This document shows positions 25-34,736 of a stretch of DNA of 40,211 nucleotides, one piece after another. Within the stretch, counting starts at the first letter, position 1. The number at the start of each line of letters is the position of its first letter. The notes under the pieces are model-generated. The model did no database searches and had not been told where the DNA came from. It saw only the letters and a program-made list of their open reading frames with translations. The stretch comes from an uncultured Granulicella sp. (GTDB taxonomy: Bacteria; Acidobacteriota; Terriglobia; Terriglobales; Acidobacteriaceae), in assembly GCA_937873145.1 (NCBI GenBank), contig CALMVK010000339.1, positions 8,640 through 48,850 on the forward strand. Reading direction: 5' to 3'. A program made the translations under genes and the position numbers.

Positions 25-1425
25 CTAGCTCTCGAGCGCGGGATGGGATCTGCGCAGCCGCCGCCAGATGGCCTGCGGATGCAGCGCGGGTGGCACATCC
101 AGCAGACTGCGCGCAAAGCCGGAGAACGTGTCGTGCGCAATCCGCAACGTCGCCGGCAGCACATAGAGATTCATCAGCAGCTCCGAGATGAGCAGCGAAG
201 CCGCCGCACCGTAGAGGCCGAAGCGCCGCGCCACAAAGAACGTTACCGCCACCGTGATCGCGGTGGCCCCCAGGTACACCGCTGCCAGCCGCTTATGCTG
301 GTTGGTCGCCGTCATAATCGTTGAGCTGGTCGACCACAGCGCATACAGGATCACTACCGTCAGCAGGATCGACAGCAGTTCGCGGTTCGGCGGCACCTTG
401 CCTTGCGTCCAGTGGCTGAGAAAGAACGGGCCGCCCAGGATCATTGCCGTGACGATGAGAATCGCGAGGATGAGCGCCATCTGGCACGCCCGCCGGTGCA
501 GCGTGCGCAGAAGCGAAATCTCGCGTTGTGCAAACGATTTCGACACCTCAGGCTCAAACGTTGAGTTGACCATTTGCACCATTTGCAGGGCCACCCGAGA
601 GACTGTTCGGGCGGTCCCAAAGACCGCAACCGCGACCGGCCCCAACGCATAGCCCACCGCTTGCAGCGTGCCCTGCAGGTTGATGGCGTTTCCCATCGGA
701 AAACCCATGAAGGCAAACGCAGCCGGAGTAAGGCGGCGTATTTCCGCGAACCGGGCATGGGTCCAGCCGAAGCGAAGCCATGGAAGATCGTGCTTCACCA
801 GCCCGATCAGCAGCACCGTGCCCGCAATGTTGGCCATAGCAAAGACCATCGCCGCCGTGCGCGGGCCGTACCCCATCCCTACCGGAACCAGCATGGCCAC
901 AAACGCCCCCAACGTCATGCAGCTTTTGACGAACGACCCGTACGGAAACCGGCCCACGCAGCGGTAGGCCGATTGCAGCAACTGCTCCAACTGCCCGACC
1001 AGCACTGCTACCCCAAGCCAGGCAACGATCCACTTGCAGTCATGCTCGCCGATCGCGTGCACGTTCAGGAGCGTGCCCACCGGCACAAATGAGATCAGGA
1101 TAAGCGCCGCGAGCCCCGTTATGGAAAGCACAAGAACGATTAGCCACCAGCAGCTCTGAAAGACTCGCAGCGTGCTCTCGCGGTCTTCGCGGGCCTCCGC
1201 CATGGTCATCTCGTTGCCGGCTACCGACCCGAAGCCAATGTTTGAAAAGCTGAGGTATGCGGGAATCGCATTCAGCAGAAGCCAGTTGCCGTACACCGCC
1301 TCCGACCAGAAGTGAAAGAACACGGGCACCTGGGCCAGTTGAATAACCGTGTTCGCCAGCTTGGAGATCCACTGCGAGATGAGCCCCAGGATCAGGCGGC
1401 GCCTGGTCCCGGCGTCGATGCTCAT
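25..1425 (-). CDS. Polysaccharide/lipopolysaccharide flippase-like multi-TM membrane protein (Wzx/MATE-like)
   Basis: 466-aa ORF with about 12 hydrophobic segments; N-term 'LILGLISQWISKLANTVIQLAQVPVFFHFWSEAVYGNWLLL' is typical of O-antigen flippases; stop TAG at 25-27. Confidence 0.8.
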   Translation of the reverse strand: MSIDAGTRRRLILGLISQWISKLANTVIQLAQVPVFFHFWSEAVYGNWLLLNAIPAYLSFSNIGFGSVAGNEMTMAEAREDRESTLRVFQSCWWLIVLVLSITGLAALILISFVPVGTLLNVHAIGEHDCKWIVAWLGVAVLVGQLEQLLQSAYRCVGRFPYGSFVKSCMTLGAFVAMLVPVGMGYGPRTAAMVFAMANIAGTVLLIGLVKHDLPWLRFGWTHARFAEIRRLTPAAFAFMGFPMGNAINLQGTLQAVGYALGPVAVAVFGTARTVSRVALQMVQMVNSTFEPEVSKSFAQREISLLRTLHRRACQMALILAILIVTAMILGGPFFLSHWTQGKVPPNRELLSILLTVVILYALWSTSSTIMTATNQHKRLAAVYLGATAITVAVTFFVARRFGLYGAAASLLISELLMNLYVLPATLRIAHDTFSGFARSLLDVPPALHPQAIWRRLRRSHPALES

Positions 1426-1495: not shown

Positions 1496-3313
1496 TCAAT
1501 GTTCCCTCAGCCTGCGGTCTACCTTCATCTTTTCAAGCGTGAGCGTGTCTACCATCGCTTGATCGCCGCGTCGCTCGGCCTCGGTGATCGAAACCCGCAA
1601 CTCCCGCTGACGCCGCTCCAGAAATCGTCGCGTCATGGTCGCCAGCGCGCCCTCCACCTGCTCCAGCATGGTTTGCGTTCCGGACGTTCTCGAGCGGGTG
1701 TTCGCCTCCGGAGCCTCCACTTGGGAGGCCAGCACCTCCGCCAGCATCGTTCGCATTTCGTCCTCCGCAGCCGCGTCCAACGGATTCTCTGGCGCCGGGC
1801 CATGCGCCAGCGACTCCAGCAGCGGCGCCGCGTTCATCCCGTCGTACCACTCCGGATGCGCGCAGAGTTCCTCTGCCGCTCGCCGACGCGCCGGATCCGT
1901 CTCCGGAAGCACCAGCGCGCGCAGCAGCACACGCTCCAGCTCCGTCGCCGGCTCCATTCGCCGCGCGCGCACGCTGCCCAGGCGCTGCGCCGCCGCCTCC
2001 TTCAACTCCTGCCGCATGACTGCGGAATCGATGCCCAGCTTTTGCGCCGCATCCGCCGCAAACTCATCCCGATGAATCCGGTTCGGCATCCGGCGCATAT
2101 GCGGGAGAAGAAAGTTGAGCGCCTTCACTTTGCCATCGGGAGTCCGTACTGGAAACGTCTCGCGCGCCCGATCGATCAGGTAGTCCGAGTGCCGCTTTGC
2201 CGTCCGCAGCGCTGCCATGTACGCCTGGATGCCTCGCTCACGCACAAACCGGTCCGGGTCCAGACCATCCTCAAGCGCAATGACCTTTACCTCAAATCCC
2301 TCCTCGGTGAGCAAGGCAATGGACTTCTCCGCCGCCGTCGAACCCGCCTGGTCCGGGTCGAAATTGACTACAACCCGCTTTGTAAAGCGGCTCAGCAGCC
2401 GTACCTGCATCTCCGTGAAAGCCGTTCCCGAGGTGGCGAGCACATTCTTGATTCCGGCCGTGTACACCGAGATGCAGTCCATCTGGCCTTCGACCAGCAG
2501 CGCAAACTCGAGCGTCCGCATCTCCGCCTTTGCCTTATCCAGATTGAAGAGCACCTGGCCCTTGGTGTAGAGCGTCGTCTCGGGAGAGTTCAGATACTTC
2601 GCCACGGGCCGGCCCTTGTCATCCACCGCATCGAGCGCCCGCGCCGTGAATGCGATCGTCTTGCCTTGTTCGCTGGCGATGGGAAAGGTGATGCGTTTGC
2701 GAAACCGCGCGTAAAGCGGGCCTGTTGGCTGATTTTCTTCGTCTTTTTCGCTTGAGGTAAACAGCCCGCTGGCCCGCATGGCCTCTTCGCTGAAGTGGCT
2801 CTTCAGCCGCTCCCGCATATCGTTGAAATCGTCCGGGGCATACCCGATGCGGAAAGTTGCTACTGTCTGCGGCGAAACGCCACGTCCCGTAAGGTACTCC
2901 CGCGCCCGCGCCGCTACCGGGGCTTTCAGGTTAGCCTCAAAGTATTGCGTTGCCGCTTCGTGCAGATCGATCAACTGCCTTCGCAGCCCTGCCTCCAGCG
3001 CCTCTTCCGCGGAGGAAAACTCCCTTTTGGGCAACGGAATGCCGGCTTTTACAGCGACGGCGCGCACCGCCTCCGGAAAGGTCAGCAGATCCATTTTCAT
3101 CACAAAGGTGAAGACATCGCCGGTCTGATGACAGCCGAAACAGTAAAAGTAGCCGCGGGTCGCATTCACAGAAAACGATCCCGTCTTCTCTTTATGGAAA
3201 GGACACAGCCCGGTGTAGTTCTGCGCACCGGTCTTGCGCAGTTTCACATACTCGCCGATCACTTTAACGATGTCGACCTGCGATTTTACGATCTGTGCAA
3301 AGTTATCCGCCAT
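1496..3313 (-). CDS. dnaG: DNA primase
   Basis: CHC2 zinc finger 'GLCPFHKEKTGSFSVNATRGYFYCFGCHQTGDVFTFV'; TOPRIM 'LLVEGQMDCISVYTAGIKNVLATSGTAF...VVVNFDPDQAG'. ORF opens at 3325; ATG at 3313 (MADNFAQIVKSQVDIVKVIGEYV) matches the usual start. Confidence 0.96.
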   Translation of the reverse strand: MADNFAQIVKSQVDIVKVIGEYVKLRKTGAQNYTGLCPFHKEKTGSFSVNATRGYFYCFGCHQTGDVFTFVMKMDLLTFPEAVRAVAVKAGIPLPKREFSSAEEALEAGLRRQLIDLHEAATQYFEANLKAPVAARAREYLTGRGVSPQTVATFRIGYAPDDFNDMRERLKSHFSEEAMRASGLFTSSEKDEENQPTGPLYARFRKRITFPIASEQGKTIAFTARALDAVDDKGRPVAKYLNSPETTLYTKGQVLFNLDKAKAEMRTLEFALLVEGQMDCISVYTAGIKNVLATSGTAFTEMQVRLLSRFTKRVVVNFDPDQAGSTAAEKSIALLTEEGFEVKVIALEDGLDPDRFVRERGIQAYMAALRTAKRHSDYLIDRARETFPVRTPDGKVKALNFLLPHMRRMPNRIHRDEFAADAAQKLGIDSAVMRQELKEAAAQRLGSVRARRMEPATELERVLLRALVLPETDPARRRAAEELCAHPEWYDGMNAAPLLESLAHGPAPENPLDAAAEDEMRTMLAEVLASQVEAPEANTRSRTSGTQTMLEQVEGALATMTRRFLERRQRELRVSITEAERRGDQAMVDTLTLEKMKVDRRLREH

Positions 3314-3410
3314 ACCTTCCACCAAGTCTAGAAGAAGTCTGCTTCCAGGGTCATGGGAGACAACCGTTTCCTGTCCGTGAGCAGGACCCGAGTAGGCCCG
3401 GTATCTTTTG

Positions 3411-3839
3411 TTAGACCTCCTGCAGCACCAGCGATTTCAACAGATCCAGCACCTCCTGGCCCGCGTCCGAACTCTTGTGGATTGCATCTTGCAGCTTCGC
3501 GTCCAGTTCGGGTGTCAACGCGCACTCTTCTGGGGAGACATACGCCATCGACCACTCGGCGAAGTCTCGCTGTTCGCTGGTCAGGCTTTCCAGAACCGTT
3601 ACATCTCCGTGTCGCGTGTCGTTCTGGATGCGCTCGAAGACTGCCTCAAGCGCCTCTTGCGGCCCCTCAAGGACCTGTGCAAAGTGATCCGCGCTGAACA
3701 AAAGAGCACCCGTCACGTTCGCTTTGCTGTTATTTCTCCGCGATGTTTCAAGAATTTGACTGATCTCTGCGTTGCGCGTGGCGGCATCTCCCTCAATGAG
3801 ATTGCGGCTGCAGTAAACGACTTTCTGAATGCTGGTCAC
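3411..3839 (-). CDS. Stand-alone BLUF-domain blue-light photoreceptor (~142 aa)
   Basis: 'VVYCSRNLIEGDAATRNAEISQILETSRRNNSKANVTGALLFSADHFAQVLEGPQEALEAVFERIQNDTRHGDVTVLESLTSEQRDFAEWSMAYV' matches the BLUF pattern, with the conserved Tyr, Asn, Gln and WxM positions. GTG start at 3839 preceded by GAGGG with 5-nt spacing. Confidence 0.9.
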   Translation of the reverse strand: MTSIQKVVYCSRNLIEGDAATRNAEISQILETSRRNNSKANVTGALLFSADHFAQVLEGPQEALEAVFERIQNDTRHGDVTVLESLTSEQRDFAEWSMAYVSPEECALTPELDAKLQDAIHKSSDAGQEVLDLLKSLVLQEV

Positions 3840-3904
3840 AGGTGCCCTCGGTGGTTGTTCTTCGTTGAAAGTGTACGAATGCGGACGTAGCAGCTTGATG
3901 CTCT

Positions 3905-5245
3905 CTACTCGCCAGGCTTTAGAAAGAGCTCTGGAAGATCGGAGACTGTAAACGTTTTGCCACAATAGAAACCTTGCAACGTCTGACATCCATCGGCGCG
4001 CACCGCGGCTAGATGCTTAGAGGTGGCAACGCCTTCGACCGAAGTCGTGATTCCCAGCGTTTTCCCCAGAGCCGAGATCGCCTGAACGATGGCCCGGCTC
4101 TTCGCATCCTCCCGCTGCAGCCCGCTCAAAGAGGAATCGATCTTGATCGTGTCGAACGGAAAATTTACCAGTTGGCTCAACGATGCAAAACCCGTGCCAA
4201 AGCTGTCCATGGCCACGCGCACACCAAGCTGTCGCAGTTGCTGCAAGGTTTTGGTAACCTGCAGCCCATTGCGCATCAGGATGTCTTCCGTGACTTCAAT
4301 TTCTAGCCGATGTCCAGGCAGTCCTGCGGCCTTAAGAGCTGCCTCTACTGTGCCCGCAAATTTGGCTGCTTCAAAGTCGATTGCCGAGATATTGAGCGCG
4401 ACCTTAACCTCGCCCGGCCAACGTGCCGCCTCCTTGCAGGCGGCCTTCAACATCCATTCGCCGATGGCGAGTGAAAATCCAATCTCCTCGGCAATGGGCA
4501 GAAAATCCTTTGCGGCAATCAGTCCGCGCTCGGGTGCGCGCCAGTACAGCAATCCCTCCATGACCAAAATGCTGCCGCTCTCTGCATCAATCTGCGGCTG
4601 ATAGTGAATTTCAAACTGCCGCAAGACCAGGGCGCGGCGTAACCCTAGTTCCATCTGTCGCCGCTCCTGCGCGCGCTCCGCCAGATCCGGCGTAAAGAAA
4701 TGGAAGACACACCTTCCCGAGGCTTTTGAATGATAGAGTGCCAGGTCGGCGTACTTCAGCAACTGCGGTCGTCCGGAGGCATCGTCCGGTGCGCTTGCAA
4801 TGCCGATGCTGACGCCGATATGAACGACGTGGCCTTCAATGAGATATGTACGCTGAACCAGATCAATCATCTTCGCAGCCAATGCAGCGGTCTGATCCCG
4901 TTCGAGATCCGTCAGCACGACCGCAAATTCATCGCCTCCCAGCCGCGCCAGAGCGCCCTCTTCCGGCACCAGGCTTTGCAGACGTTCAGTCACCTTGCAC
5001 AGCAACGCATCGCCTACCGGATGGCCTAGCGTATCGTTTACCGCCTTAAAACGGTCGAGATCCAAGAACAGCACCGTAACCCGTTGCACCTGCCCAGAGG
5101 CGAGTTCCAGAAGCCGCTCGCCCAGATGCTGATCGAAGTACAACCTGTTGGCGATCCCGGTGAGAACGTCTCGGCTGGCAAGAGACCACTCCGGCAAAAG
5201 ATCCTTGGCGAGACGATGTATGTCCGGTTCGGTGTACGTGGTCAA
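3905..5245 (-). CDS. GGDEF-EAL domain protein (diguanylate cyclase with degenerate EAL)
   Basis: 'DVLTGIANRLYFDQHL...LARLGGDEFAVVL' GGDEF; EAL-like 'HYQPQIDAESGSILVMEGLLYW ... VALNISAIDF ... LEIEVTEDILMRNG ... AMDSFGTGFASLSQL ... IKIDSSL ... SVEGVAT ... LQGFYCGK'. TTG start at 5245 with AGGAG upstream. Confidence 0.93.
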   Translation of the reverse strand: MTTYTEPDIHRLAKDLLPEWSLASRDVLTGIANRLYFDQHLGERLLELASGQVQRVTVLFLDLDRFKAVNDTLGHPVGDALLCKVTERLQSLVPEEGALARLGGDEFAVVLTDLERDQTAALAAKMIDLVQRTYLIEGHVVHIGVSIGIASAPDDASGRPQLLKYADLALYHSKASGRCVFHFFTPDLAERAQERRQMELGLRRALVLRQFEIHYQPQIDAESGSILVMEGLLYWRAPERGLIAAKDFLPIAEEIGFSLAIGEWMLKAACKEAARWPGEVKVALNISAIDFEAAKFAGTVEAALKAAGLPGHRLEIEVTEDILMRNGLQVTKTLQQLRQLGVRVAMDSFGTGFASLSQLVNFPFDTIKIDSSLSGLQREDAKSRAIVQAISALGKTLGITTSVEGVATSKHLAAVRADGCQTLQGFYCGKTFTVSDLPELFLKPGE

Positions 5246-5564
5246 TCAAAGCTCCTGTTTTTCTCTGTGCGCTCTCCAGCGGTGGCGACGCATCTAGAGT
5301 CAATTTACGTGCAACCGCCGGGGATAGCACTTCCACTTACGTGGCATGATGGAATCCTTAAACCCGCCGATAAGGGAAATAAGTACCGCCGATGGTATCC
5401 AAATCTGCAACCTGGATGCTTGCACAGTTGCCTTTCAGCTCTGCCCTGTCCCACCTTTGTCGTATCGCTTTTCTAGAAACTTCGTTTGATCCTTAGGGTT
5501 CGTACGGACGCGGGTGGAAATTCACGCCTGACCGGCAAAGATGCCGAAGAGAAAGAGGATTTCT

Positions 5565-20210: not shown

Positions 20211-20253
20211 AATTAGGATTAGATCCTAATTATAAATATCTTTATAAATATCT
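20211..20253. repeat. AT-rich element: 9-bp palindrome (aattaggat-tag-atcctaatt) followed by tandem tataaatatct repeats
   Basis: aattaggat 20211-20219 / atcctaatt 20223-20231; tataaatatct at 20231-20241 and 20243-20253. Confidence 0.75.
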
Positions 20254-21282
20254 AAGAGGAGCGTGAGCAAGCAGTAAGTCTTTTAACATACTGCCCAAGC
20301 CGCTGTAGTTTGAGTATTGCGCATATAGCTTGCGTTTACGAAAGATCGACACCGCTCGCTGAGTTCGCTTCGCTGGCAGGTTTGAACGGAAGGCAAGATA
20401 ATTTGCAAATTGCCGGTAGGCACTTAGGCGATCACTTCCTTGAGATTCTAGCTGAGCTTCAGCAAAGCGAGTGCATACTACCTGAATCAGGGTAGCTGCC
20501 TTATGGATCTCATTCCAGTGTTTCTCGTGAGCGCACCCTGCGTCAAGAAACATATGCAGAGAAAGCTTAAGTCTTCCTATTGCGGAGATCTGCTGCGTGC
20601 TTCCAACCTGCTGCGATGCATGCAGGCGATAGCAGATGAGATTTTGCTTAAGTGGATACAGCTCGGAGAACAAGGGCACGGACGCGGCGAGCCATTCATC
20701 ATGAATCCAGCCCTCTCCCACGGGAAAGCAAAGATCTCGCAGGAAAGTACGAAACATGACGGTCGCTCCTGTAACAAATCGAAGCTGAACGCAGACGAGA
20801 TAGTCCTTTGCAGCAAGTCTTTGCTGAATGATGTCTGAGAAACCAAAGCTCGTCCAGAGATTACCCGGGAGAGGCTTACTCTGATCATCGATTAGAGTTC
20901 CATCAGAGAAGGTCATCCCTACTTCGGGATGCTCTAGCAAAAGTTTTTCAGAGTGTTGCAGGCGAGAGGCATGCCAAAGATCGTCTTGATCCGCAAGCGC
21001 GATCAGTGTCCCGCTGCACAGATGGATTGCCTGTAGAAAGTTCTGAGTGGAGCCAAGCTTACTCTTGTTTTCCATCACCGTAACCGGAAACGGCGCCTGC
21101 TCGGCGAACGCCCGTAGCAGAATGAGTGTATTGTCGGACGAGTTGTCGTCGCACACAATGAGTTCATCCGGAAGGCGAGTCTGGTTGAGGATACTGTCAA
21201 GCTGTTCCGGTAAGAAGCGCTCTCCATTGTAGGTGCAGAGGGCAACCGATATGCGCGCGTGTGGAGGAGTTTCAGTACGCAT
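20242..21282 (-). CDS. GT2-family glycosyltransferase
   Basis: 'ISVALCTYNGERFLPEQLDSILNQTRLPDELIVCDDNSSDNT...ALADQDDLW...GWIHDEWLAASV' (GT-A fold, DQDD). Confidence 0.93.
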   Translation of the reverse strand: MRTETPPHARISVALCTYNGERFLPEQLDSILNQTRLPDELIVCDDNSSDNTLILLRAFAEQAPFPVTVMENKSKLGSTQNFLQAIHLCSGTLIALADQDDLWHASRLQHSEKLLLEHPEVGMTFSDGTLIDDQSKPLPGNLWTSFGFSDIIQQRLAAKDYLVCVQLRFVTGATVMFRTFLRDLCFPVGEGWIHDEWLAASVPLFSELYPLKQNLICYRLHASQQVGSTQQISAIGRLKLSLHMFLDAGCAHEKHWNEIHKAATLIQVVCTRFAEAQLESQGSDRLSAYRQFANYLAFRSNLPAKRTQRAVSIFRKRKLYAQYSNYSGLGSMLKDLLLAHAPLRYL

Positions 21283-22893: not shown

Positions 22894-24747
22894 CTACCTG
22901 CTTTGGCGCGAACGAAGTTGAACTGGTGAATAGAAGCGAAGCTCAACGCTACCGGTGAAATTTGAGCGGGAAGTTTGCTCCAGCAGAGGAAAGTTCCATC
23001 GTTCGTATTGCCCCAATGCATTCACCTCAATTTCAGGACGTATCCTCCACGAGGCGTTCGCTCCATAATCGTTGTTGTTGCCGCCCCCATAGAGAGAGGG
23101 GTCGAGTACCATTTTTCGATAGAAAATGCCTATTCTTTTTTCTGGGGAGGCCCAATACGTGGTCGATGCTTGCCCGCCAATGCCTTGGCGGCCGATCCAA
23201 CTGCCGAGAATCTGTCCATAGTTGGTGTAACCCTCGGGATAGTGAGTGTTGGCATAGTAGAAGCCCTGGTATGGGGCTTTTGGTAAATCTGTATAGGCTG
23301 CCTCAAACCGGGCATCCAGCTTATGGAGCTTTGGCAACTCTGAAAGGTAAATTCCAGGATCCCAGGCAAATCGAGCTACAAATTTGCCTTCGATTGGATC
23401 GTCCCACGCCATTCCTTCACTGTAAACCTGGATAGCTCGTCGGAATCCAGGGAGGTGGTAGCTGAGGTTTACCTCAGTGACTCGTTTTCCCGGATCTACC
23501 GCTTGACCGTTGCCGAAGATGGAGAAGCTATGCGCGAAGGTTCCGAAAGTAAGTGGCCGACCGTAGCCGGCGAAGATTGTGGTATGCGCCAGACCTAACT
23601 CAAAGTTCTCGGTAGGCTTGACGGTCAGGTGTACTCCCCATAGGTAAGGTGGAGGGGTAAGCGCGACATTCTGACTTCCGTAAGGAATAAAGTTTGGGCC
23701 AAGGGCGACAAAATGAATGCCACCCTGTCTAGCCATGAAGAAGTCGAAGTGGACCGGGCCTAAGACGTGTAGCGCACCGGGCAAGTGGCCAGGTTTGACG
23801 CGATCGACGCGAAGCATGGGAAGAGGGGCTGCGTTGGTGGACAGGATCAGGGAAGTGCTGCGATCCGGCCCCCACCACAGGCTCTGCTGCCCGAACGTGA
23901 ACTGCCAGTTATGGACGTTGAGGGCGACATAGGCGTCCAGCGGGCGTAAGCGGTTTGTGTTGCCAAAGCGTAGATTCCAGCCAAATGGAATGACATCGCC
24001 GCCGGCGATGAAGCTTTGCACTGACGGAGTGTACATCTGAAGAGGAAGCGCTGAGGCGTACTGATACTCGCCGCGGAAGTAAGCGGCAAACGGACCGGCG
24101 GTGCCCCGGAGAGCAAACCCACTGATCTCGTTGCCACCTTTTCCGTACGGACGGCCGAAATCATCGACCAGCGTTTGCGAGAAGTGGTATCCGTCACGCA
24201 GCGGAGTTCCGCCAATTGCAGTGACTCGCGTGTAGGCATTGTCTAACTGGACTTCCTGATTTTCTTCTCCGGAAATGATGCGACCTTCGTCGGCGAACTC
24301 GTTATCGAGCGAGGCAAGTAGTGACTCGCCTATGTCATCCATCTCAAAATATTGCTCGTGAGCTTCGGCGACGAGTCGCGCTCCTTCCAGGCGAGTCCAC
24401 GGCCTAACCATTGCAGTGCTATCCGGGAGATAGCCCAAGGCTGCAAGACGGTCGAATGCAGAGTAGGTCCAGTTATCGAGAGGGATGTAGGTTGAGCCTT
24501 TGTATTGTGTGCTGGAGTCTGTTTGCGCATCTACATTGCGTGCCGCAGGAAGAGCTTGAGCTGCGAGTGTAGGCACAGTGCCAATGCTAGTTAAGGCCTG
24601 TGAAGTGGAAGCTGCAGCGAATTTTTTTTCGACAATAGAAGAGGTTGTAAAAAGAAGCTGAGGTGATTTGTAATAGAAATCCTGTCCCAGGCTGTACGAG
24701 GAGCCTGCGATCATCCATAAGAATAAAATCCAGAAACGCACCTTCAC
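22894..24747 (-). CDS. Capsule-assembly Wzi-like outer membrane protein with N-terminal SLH-like segment
   Basis: Signal peptide; 'YIPLDNWTYSAFDRLAALGYLPDSTAMVRPWTRLEGARLVAEA' then beta-rich barrel 'NWQFTFGQQSLWWGPDRSTSLILSTNAAPLPMLRVDRVKPGHLPGALHVLGPVHFDFFMAR'. Confidence 0.85.
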   Translation of the reverse strand: MKVRFWILFLWMIAGSSYSLGQDFYYKSPQLLFTTSSIVEKKFAAASTSQALTSIGTVPTLAAQALPAARNVDAQTDSSTQYKGSTYIPLDNWTYSAFDRLAALGYLPDSTAMVRPWTRLEGARLVAEAHEQYFEMDDIGESLLASLDNEFADEGRIISGEENQEVQLDNAYTRVTAIGGTPLRDGYHFSQTLVDDFGRPYGKGGNEISGFALRGTAGPFAAYFRGEYQYASALPLQMYTPSVQSFIAGGDVIPFGWNLRFGNTNRLRPLDAYVALNVHNWQFTFGQQSLWWGPDRSTSLILSTNAAPLPMLRVDRVKPGHLPGALHVLGPVHFDFFMARQGGIHFVALGPNFIPYGSQNVALTPPPYLWGVHLTVKPTENFELGLAHTTIFAGYGRPLTFGTFAHSFSIFGNGQAVDPGKRVTEVNLSYHLPGFRRAIQVYSEGMAWDDPIEGKFVARFAWDPGIYLSELPKLHKLDARFEAAYTDLPKAPYQGFYYANTHYPEGYTNYGQILGSWIGRQGIGGQASTTYWASPEKRIGIFYRKMVLDPSLYGGGNNNDYGANASWRIRPEIEVNALGQYERWNFPLLEQTSRSNFTGSVELRFYSPVQLRSRQSR

Positions 24748-32424: not shown

Positions 32425-33783
32425 TCAGCAATGTACAACTTTTGGGGATTGGATGGATCGAGTGGCGTTTCTGGAGTCGATGACCAACTGCGCCTCAGCA
32501 ACAATCCTTCGAAAGTCGTAGGCACTGTGGTCGGTCAGGATGAGAACACAATCGAAGTGCCTCACTTGCTCAAGCGGCGTCGACTCCATCTGTATGGAGT
32601 AGTGGCGACCCGTGCCCACGCGCGGGAAGTAAGGGTCGTTGTAGGCGACCTGCGCACCCGCCGCAAGCAGCAGTTGCATGACGGTCAGCGCCGGCGACTC
32701 ACGCAGATCATCCACATCCCGCTTGTAGGCCACGCCGAGCACCAGTACCCGGGCGTCCTTGAGCAGCTTGCCTTCCCGCTCGAGAGCTCGTCTCGTCGTC
32801 TGCACCACATACGCCGGCATGGACTCATTGACCTCACCCGCTAGCTCGATGAACTTCGTCTCAAACCCAAACTGTTTGGCCTTCCACGTCAGATAGAACG
32901 GGTCTACAGGGATGCAGTGACCTCCCACGCCCGGGCCTGGATAGAAGGGTTGAAACCCGAACGGCTTGGTTGCGGCAGCCGCGATGACCTCCCAGAGATC
33001 GATTCCCATGTGCAGGCAAAGCTGCTTCATCTCGTTGATGAGGGCAATGTTTACCGCGCGATAGATGTTCTCAAGCAGCTTCGTCATCTCGGCCGCAGCC
33101 GTGGACGACATGGCCACCGTTCTCGCAAACACCACGCCATAGAGTGCGCACGCGGCCTCGGTGGCCCGCGCGTCCACACCCCCTACTACCTTCGGTACGC
33201 TGCGTCGCGGCACGGTAAGGTTGCCGGGGTCCTCTCGCTCCGGTGAGAACGCCACGAGCACGCCCTCGACCGACTGCGGGTCCCCGCCTGCGCGCTGTAC
33301 CTGGAGTCCGTGGCGCTCAATGGTGGTTACCACGATCTCTTCCGTGGTGCCGGGGTAGGTTGTACTCTCAAGCACCACGAGTTGTCCCAGCCGCAGATGC
33401 GGTGCGATCGACTCCATGGTCGCTACCACAGCGCGCATGTCGGGCGTGTGATCCGGGTAGAGGGGCGTGGGTACGCAGATCAGGATCGCGTCCACGGAGG
33501 CTATCTCCGCATACTCCCTTGTGGCTCGGAATCCACGGGCCTGGGCGGCTGCGATGTGCTCCGGCGTGATCCGGTGGATGTAGCTTTGTCCCGCGTTCAG
33601 CGCGCGTACTTTTGCCTCGTCGATATCAAAGCCGGTGACCGCAAAGCCGTCTTGGCTTAAGAGCAGCGTCAGAGGCAGCCCGACGTAGCCGAGCCCTACC
33701 ACGCCTACACGCAGAGTCCTGCTCTCAACCCGTGCACTCCACTCCGCCATGCTGCGTACCGGCATGAAGATGGTGCCGGTCAA
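32425..33783 (-). CDS. UDP-N-acetyl-hexosamine 6-dehydrogenase (WbpA/WbpO/TviB-like nucleotide-sugar dehydrogenase)
   Basis: 'LRVGVVGLGYVGLPLTLLLSQDGFAVTGFDID...GPGVGGHCIPVDPFYLTWKAK'; candidate TTG start 33783 with GGAGG SD; alternative ATGs at 33765 and 33750. Confidence 0.92.
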   Translation of the reverse strand: MTGTIFMPVRSMAEWSARVESRTLRVGVVGLGYVGLPLTLLLSQDGFAVTGFDIDEAKVRALNAGQSYIHRITPEHIAAAQARGFRATREYAEIASVDAILICVPTPLYPDHTPDMRAVVATMESIAPHLRLGQLVVLESTTYPGTTEEIVVTTIERHGLQVQRAGGDPQSVEGVLVAFSPEREDPGNLTVPRRSVPKVVGGVDARATEAACALYGVVFARTVAMSSTAAAEMTKLLENIYRAVNIALINEMKQLCLHMGIDLWEVIAAAATKPFGFQPFYPGPGVGGHCIPVDPFYLTWKAKQFGFETKFIELAGEVNESMPAYVVQTTRRALEREGKLLKDARVLVLGVAYKRDVDDLRESPALTVMQLLLAAGAQVAYNDPYFPRVGTGRHYSIQMESTPLEQVRHFDCVLILTDHSAYDFRRIVAEAQLVIDSRNATRSIQSPKVVHC

Positions 33784-34736
33784 CGTCTCGCCTCCGCTGC
33801 CAGCTCCGCGCGGACCCACTCCACCGTGCGCCGCAGGCCCTCTGCAAAGCTCACGCGCGGCCGATAGCCGAAGGCTTCCGCCGCGGCCGAGATATCCGCG
33901 TGCGAGTCACGTACGTCTCCGGGACGAGCCGGCTGGTAGAGCGCTGGCTGGTCGAAGCCGACGATCTCCGCCAGCAACGTGTACGTGTCGTTGAGGGTAT
34001 GCCGCTCTCCACGCGCCACGTTGAATACCTGGCCAGCTACGCGTCGAGGCTCAGCCGATAGAGCCAGCAGGTTGGCTTCAACTACATCGTCCACATAGGT
34101 GAAGTCGCGTCCTTGCTCTCCATCTCCAAAGATCACCGGCCGCTCACCCTGCAACATCTGCCGAGCCCACTTCGCGATTACGCCGGCGTAGGCCGACGCT
34201 GGATCCTGTCGTGGGCCAAAGACATTGAAGTAGCGCAGGCAGACCGTCTCAAGCCCGTACACCTGCCAGTAGGATTGCATGTAAAGCTCCCCTGCTACCT
34301 TCTGCACCGGGTAGGGCGCGATGGGCTTGGGCGTCATCGTCTCCTGCCTGGGAAAGCCGGGTTGGTTGCCATAGGCAGAGGACGACGCCGCGAAGATCAC
34401 GCGCCGGACCCCTGCGGAACGCGCAGCTTCAAGCACGTTGAAGGTGCCGTCAAGGTTGTTCTCATGGCTGGTGCGTGGATCTTGGACCGATCGTGGCACA
34501 CTCGGCAGGGCTGCTTCATGCAGCACGAAGTCCACGTCCTTGCATGCGGCTTGCACTGCCGCTGCATCGCGCAGGTCGGCTTCAATGAACTCTATGCCAG
34601 CGGCCGCATCAAGATTTTTTGGGCGGCCCGTGGAGAAGTTGTCCAACCCACGCACATAGGCCCCGCGCGCAAGCAAAGCTTGCGCCAGGTGCGAACCGAT
34701 GAATCCAGCCACTCCGGTGATGAGGTAAGTAGACAA
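33780..34736 (-). CDS. NAD-dependent epimerase (UDP-GlcNAc 4-epimerase WbpP/TviC-like)
   Basis: 'YLITGVAGFIGSHLAQALLARGAYVRGLDNFSTGRPKNL...SHENNLDGTFNVLEAAR...YPVQKVAGELY' (GxxGxxG, YxxxK); apparent TTG start. Confidence 0.92.
   Translation of the reverse strand: MSTYLITGVAGFIGSHLAQALLARGAYVRGLDNFSTGRPKNLDAAAGIEFIEADLRDAAAVQAACKDVDFVLHEAALPSVPRSVQDPRTSHENNLDGTFNVLEAARSAGVRRVIFAASSSAYGNQPGFPRQETMTPKPIAPYPVQKVAGELYMQSYWQVYGLETVCLRYFNVFGPRQDPASAYAGVIAKWARQMLQGERPVIFGDGEQGRDFTYVDDVVEANLLALSAEPRRVAGQVFNVARGERHTLNDTYTLLAEIVGFDQPALYQPARPGDVRDSHADISAAAEAFGYRPRVSFAEGLRRTVEWVRAELAAEARR

Follow-up and report, generated by a model that had tools for sequence, protein, structure and literature searches.

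Does the short BLUF photoreceptor gene that adjoins a GGDEF-EAL gene in this DNA form a blue-light switch with it, and which c-di-GMP activity would such a switch control? In the stretch analysed (40,211 nucleotides, hereafter the window), the minus strand reads in the order GGDEF-EAL, BLUF and dnaG (Table 1).

Layout of the locus

The BLUF gene had been placed 65 nt downstream of the GGDEF-EAL gene on the same strand by a sequence-only reading. This distance holds with the GTG start at 3839-3837, which is favoured over an ATG at 3989 because a GAGG site lies upstream and no relative carries the extension. Starting at ATG 3989, the BLUF gene would share 85 nt with the EAL gene and gain 49 residues absent from all relatives; this start was rejected because a 4-nt overlap or a nearly abutting start is the rule in the other pairs. 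Both ribosome-binding sites show normal spacing, with GAGG 6 nt before GTG 3839 and AGGAG 6 nt before TTG 5245. A scan for promoters and terminators gave nothing exceeding shuffles.

Table 1. Coordinates of the two-gene module, its surroundings and the polysaccharide genes of the window.
Feature	Position	Strand	Basis or remark
Flippase-like gene	25-1425		sequence reading, no Pfam hit
dnaG (primase), downstream neighbour	1496..3325	-	Pfam
dnaG to divergent WXXGXW gene interval, contains the inserted two-gene module	3314..5540	.	tblastn of same-genus dnaG loci
Short BLUF photoreceptor gene	3411..3839	-	143 aa, GTG start; Pfam BLUF and aligned key residues
GAGG ribosome-binding site of BLUF gene	3846..3849	-	sequence read
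GGDEF-EAL gene	3905..5245	-	446 aa, TTG start; Pfam and residue table
AGGAG ribosome-binding site of GGDEF-EAL gene	5252..5256	-	sequence read
Glycosyltransferase gene	20242-21282
Wzi gene	22894-24747
UDP-sugar dehydrogenase gene	32425-33819

The GGDEF-EAL/BLUF pairing is conserved and co-inherited

BLUF genes were surveyed at several taxonomic levels: in the family (150 and 398 genomes), the genus (62), the class (399), the phylum (396) and a second family (237). Their distribution is patchy, and any BLUF was present in five of the 62 genus genomes. The window genome has one BLUF match and one GGDEF-EAL tandem, which adjoin each other. When neighbourhoods were read, a GGDEF-EAL gene directly followed by a BLUF gene was found in ten acidobacterial genomes from two families (the window, G043, G291, G183, G469, G624, G668, G633, G1144 and G1071). 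The three closest BLUF relatives in one survey (51, 48 and 44% identity) are all among these paired loci. The two genes overlap by 4 nt in five of the acidobacterial pairs, and in G291 the BLUF gene starts 2 nt past the enzyme stop codon. In G624 (L117:6923-7392), a frameshift breaks the BLUF frame in that assembly, through assembly error or decay.

Five more pairs were found on alphaproteobacterial plasmids, which are the only source of the cross-phylum pairs (Sinorhizobium sp. B11, Neorhizobium sp. SOG26, Skermanella mucosa, Aureimonas sp. AU20 and Rhizobium sp. SSA_523). A plasmid of Rhizobium sp. CC-CFT758 carries a pair with a broken enzyme frame. Across two phyla, the fifteen pairs keep gene order and tight spacing, with enzymes 31-56% identical to that of the window. 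The survey of relatives that had been proposed for the adjacency was therefore positive, and the pairing of GGDEF-EAL and BLUF genes is not due to chance.

Of 82 BLUFs placed on a tree, fifteen make up one clade with 99/99 support: the nine analysable ones from the acidobacterial pairs and six solo ones. All 67 others lack a GGDEF-EAL neighbour; eleven of them have a solo EAL gene downstream (ten directly after the BLUF gene), and three are fused to EAL. A scan of genome contigs added one BLUF, outside the clade, without a GGDEF/EAL neighbour. The GGDEF-EAL proteins of the same genomes were also placed on a tree, where eight of the ten acidobacterial partners group in a clade with 100/99 support; monophyly of all ten was not rejected (p-AU 0.42). 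Other GGDEF-EAL proteins in 14 genomes are at most 40% identical to the window enzyme, versus 43-56% for the eight clade partners; the G668 and G633 partners are less similar (36 and 31%). An unlinked member of the partner clade was sought in the same 14 genomes, six of which hold solo clade BLUFs, and none was seen. Pairwise BLUF and enzyme distances were correlated (r 0.70, permutation p 0.0002), to which shared descent contributes. These results strongly support that the two genes were inherited as a pair, and the two-protein unit first suspected from the window stands as a conserved, co-inherited gene pair.

Six members of the BLUF clade (L043, L044, L045, L046, L047 and L048) are solo: they lack any GGDEF/EAL gene in their neighbourhood, and a close homologue of the partner enzyme was not found elsewhere in their genomes. 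This BLUF type can thus occur without the neighbouring enzyme gene. They may have lost or exchanged their partner.

The pair is an insertion beside dnaG

The common order in the genus is a flippase gene, dnaG, a divergent WXXGXW-protein gene and a TrmH-like gene. Of 29 other same-genus loci read, 12 have about 0.15-0.8 kb between dnaG and the WXXGXW gene and lack the module there, versus 2.2 kb in the window, so that the module is an insertion of roughly 1.5-2 kb between them. In G183, the pair is on another contig and the dnaG site is empty. Because the site lacks the module in relatives and the G183 pair lies elsewhere, both genes move together, and they probably arrived jointly in a small cassette. 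The dnaG neighbourhood, which the sequence-only reading had named, did not prove significant: dnaG adjoins the module only in the window and in no relative read, and many same-genus genomes have a dnaG site without it. A special link to dnaG was thus ruled out.

The insertion and the patchy occurrence, together with a G+C content of the module slightly below that of its neighbours, are what a neutral accident or hitchhiking on mobile DNA without functional link would produce. However, such a process would hardly keep order and tight spacing in fifteen pairs of such divergent enzymes from two phyla, nor leave every BLUF outside the clade without a GGDEF-EAL neighbour. The conserved linkage largely refutes this explanation, and we consider it very improbable.

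The BLUF protein carries the flavin-site residues

The window protein matches the Pfam BLUF family (PF04940) with 97.6 bits (E 4.5e-28; curated cut-off 25). Numbered on the 143-residue translation of window:3411-3842, the flavin-site residues Y10, N38, Q56, W97 and M99 are present and invariant in 14 pairs. The Tyr, Gln and Trp/Met residues named earlier from the window alone are among them, but the Asn assigned at that time, in ANVTG, varies in relatives; the FAD-binding Asn is instead N38 in RRNNSK, which aligns with AppA N45.

A Phe-Ala-Gln motif at the flavin Gln (residues 54-56) marks the clade and occurs in all fifteen acidobacterial members. All other acidobacterial BLUFs with the motif read have a bulky residue before the Gln, and Leu, Phe, Met, Ile or Val stands in other BLUFs where the clade has Ala. 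Two plasmid members of the clade have Gly. The Phe-Ala-Gln variant may tune the photocycle.

The GGDEF domain is intact and the EAL domain is degenerate

The window enzyme matches GGDEF (PF00990, 142.5 bits) and EAL (PF00563, 205 bits), clearly over the Pfam thresholds. It starts 25 residues before the DxLT motif and therefore lacks its own sensor domain; several longer partner enzymes have a weak PAS-like region at the N terminus, which is missing here. This bears on the possibility that the genes are co-transcribed and co-inherited while the BLUF protein acts elsewhere, for example on a transcription factor like BlsA or BluF, and does not bind the GGDEF-EAL protein. The six solo BLUFs of the same clade, with neither a GGDEF/EAL gene nearby nor a close partner homologue in the genome, are consistent with another target. 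Yet an enzyme without another sensor domain, partner enzymes that cluster on the tree, and a gene order and linkage that persist between phyla and at different genomic sites all argue against this, and action only on another target seems unlikely to us.

Residues were compared in PleD and RocR numbering, with roles as described in PMC7911125 and PMC5301497. The GGDEF domain keeps the equivalents of D327, N335, D344, the GGDEF motif and the Lys. The inhibitory I-site RxxD is gone, with P in place of R and G in place of D; this site is not obligatory for cyclases. In the EAL domain, Ser replaces D296 (DD to DS), Ala replaces E355 (EGVE to EGVA), and EAL reads EGL. In DDFGTG, the second Asp binds metal (PMC5301497; PMC7911125), and the window EAL thus lacks the complete metal ligands and loop-6 Glu (DDFGTG, EGVE) of active EAL domains. 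The equivalents of E175, N233, E265, D295, K316, E352 and Q372 are retained. From these residues, the window EAL is probably inactive, although it may keep residual phosphodiesterase activity or c-di-GMP binding because most EAL ligands persist.

The other pairs differ in the half that has decayed. At the D296 position, Arg is found in G043, Ser in G183 and Cys in G1071, with several EAL losses in the last two; the listed GGDEF residues are intact in these three and in the window. In contrast, EAL ligands are kept in G668, whose GGDEF is degenerate (SGDEF, Lys to Glu), and in G633, whose GGDEF is degenerate as well (WADEF and more) and whose enzyme is cut short. G1144 has Asn for D327. Both domains appear intact in G291, G469, G624 and the plasmid pairs, except that two of them read ESL for EAL. 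Loss of both halves is seen in no member, among few independent losses.

About 340 nt from the degenerate pair of G183 lies a divergent second gene for a solo EAL with intact motifs (L042:9923-10696, + strand). It perhaps restores phosphodiesterase activity to that module.

The BLUF protein could also control the enzyme with phosphodiesterase as the main output, if the DS variant were active and the GGDEF domain served as a GTP-binding allosteric input. The seven retained EAL residues listed above fit such an output, as do the intact EAL domains of other pairs (e.g. G291, G469, G668 and Aureimonas). It would also resemble the physiology of PapB-PapA and BlrP1, and phosphodiesterases are what BLUF controls in the characterised c-di-GMP systems tabulated in PMC8846402. 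But the metal-ligand Asp of DDFGTG is replaced in four pairs including the window, two of these have further EAL losses, and all four keep the listed GGDEF residues, which makes a phosphodiesterase output improbable. Output of the window module is probably c-di-GMP synthesis, as judged from the residues, and light could steer it in either direction.

Comparison with known systems

PapB-PapA of Rhodopseudomonas palustris combines a short BLUF with a solo EAL phosphodiesterase in a heterotetramer, in which PapB docks on PapA and the signal passes through the C-terminal helices of PapB (PMC8846402). It shares with the window module a separate short BLUF gene adjoining a c-di-GMP enzyme gene, and because it is already characterised, the separateness of the BLUF is not new in itself. 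PapA is a solo active EAL, whereas the window partner is a GGDEF-EAL tandem encoded upstream, with a degenerate EAL and an intact GGDEF. Several acidobacteria carry PapB-PapA-like pairs of a BLUF gene followed by a solo EAL gene, some overlapping by 4 nt (L049, L050, L053, L054, L056, L059, L062, L063, L065 and L089). On the tree, which does not include PapB itself, the 99/99 clade of the window BLUF contains none of the eleven BLUF-then-EAL rows, ten of which group in a clade of their own (98/94). The window BLUF is thus in another clade than these pairs of the same phylum, which amount to another, distinct split BLUF system alongside it in the same families.

In BlrP1, a BLUF-EAL phosphodiesterase of Klebsiella pneumoniae, the BLUF domain touches the EAL dimerisation and compound helices (PMC3989770). 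A similar action on the EAL dimer interface is proposed here, but BlrP1 is a single chain with an active EAL and no GGDEF. E. coli BluF/YcgF couples BLUF to a degenerate EAL (PMC4844311), as in the window module; it differs in being fused, in lacking GGDEF and in acting as an anti-repressor by protein contact rather than through c-di-GMP turnover. Fused BLUF+EAL+GGDEF proteins also exist, such as AFL74487.1 of Thiocystis violascens (table in PMC8508746), which has the three domains of the window module but in one chain; no characterisation of it was found in the literature.

Short BLUFs of the PixD and BlsA types stand alone, like the window BLUF, and act through partner proteins, as the window BLUF probably would. 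To our knowledge, none of the described PixD partners is a c-di-GMP enzyme. The same is true of the described BlsA partners (PMC8508746).

A search of the open literature, outside which most subscription journals lie, turned up no publication in which a GGDEF-EAL protein is paired with a separate BLUF. Short BLUFs acting on c-di-GMP enzymes and fused BLUF+EAL+GGDEF proteins were already known; the split BLUF with GGDEF-EAL is, on our best reading, new.

How the module may work

With moderate confidence, and partly by analogy, we favour a mobile, co-inherited blue-light module in which the short BLUF docks on, and allosterically controls, the GGDEF-EAL protein encoded just upstream. Blue light would shift the flavin-Gln-Tyr hydrogen bonds in the BLUF protein. 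BLUF would bind the EAL part of its partner, and its C-terminal helices would relay the change to the EAL dimer interface; this contact and relay are suggested because of the analogy with BlrP1 and PapB-PapA. The changed EAL dimer would then alter how the two GGDEF domains meet. The window EAL may serve as an adaptor or c-di-GMP-binding module because its metal-binding and loop residues are lost. Because this EAL is probably inactive, the BLUF protein in the window copy would control c-di-GMP production by the intact GGDEF domain, which would run free of I-site feedback. Single-sequence AlphaFold models of both proteins were poor (pLDDT 40 and 49). The window genome has six GGDEF and three EAL matches, and since this tandem is the only one of the genome, it may weigh heavily in the c-di-GMP balance of the cell.

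More tentatively, one short BLUF type may be wired in trans to bifunctional GGDEF-EAL enzymes whose lineages lost opposite halves: the EAL in the window, G043, G183 and G1071, and the GGDEF in G668, G633 and perhaps G1144. Because opposite halves are lost, the same sensor would control c-di-GMP synthesis in some bacteria and its breakdown in others. If true, this is a widespread, undescribed light switch, and in the window it would take the form of a diguanylate cyclase naturally controlled by BLUF, with a dead EAL as docking relay. The pairs with decay of either half would form a natural series for studying signal relay through a dead EAL and the means by which a single sensor drives opposite outputs. 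The module would also be useful for raising c-di-GMP, as a two-part blue-light tool that is based on flavin.

The polysaccharide genes mentioned in the sequence-only reading as plausible outputs are present elsewhere in the window (Table 1), and nothing was found that connects them with the BLUF module. On plasmid pSM-1 of Skermanella mucosa (L201:2326-6759), the pair lies directly upstream of the bacteriochlorophyll genes bchE and bchJ.
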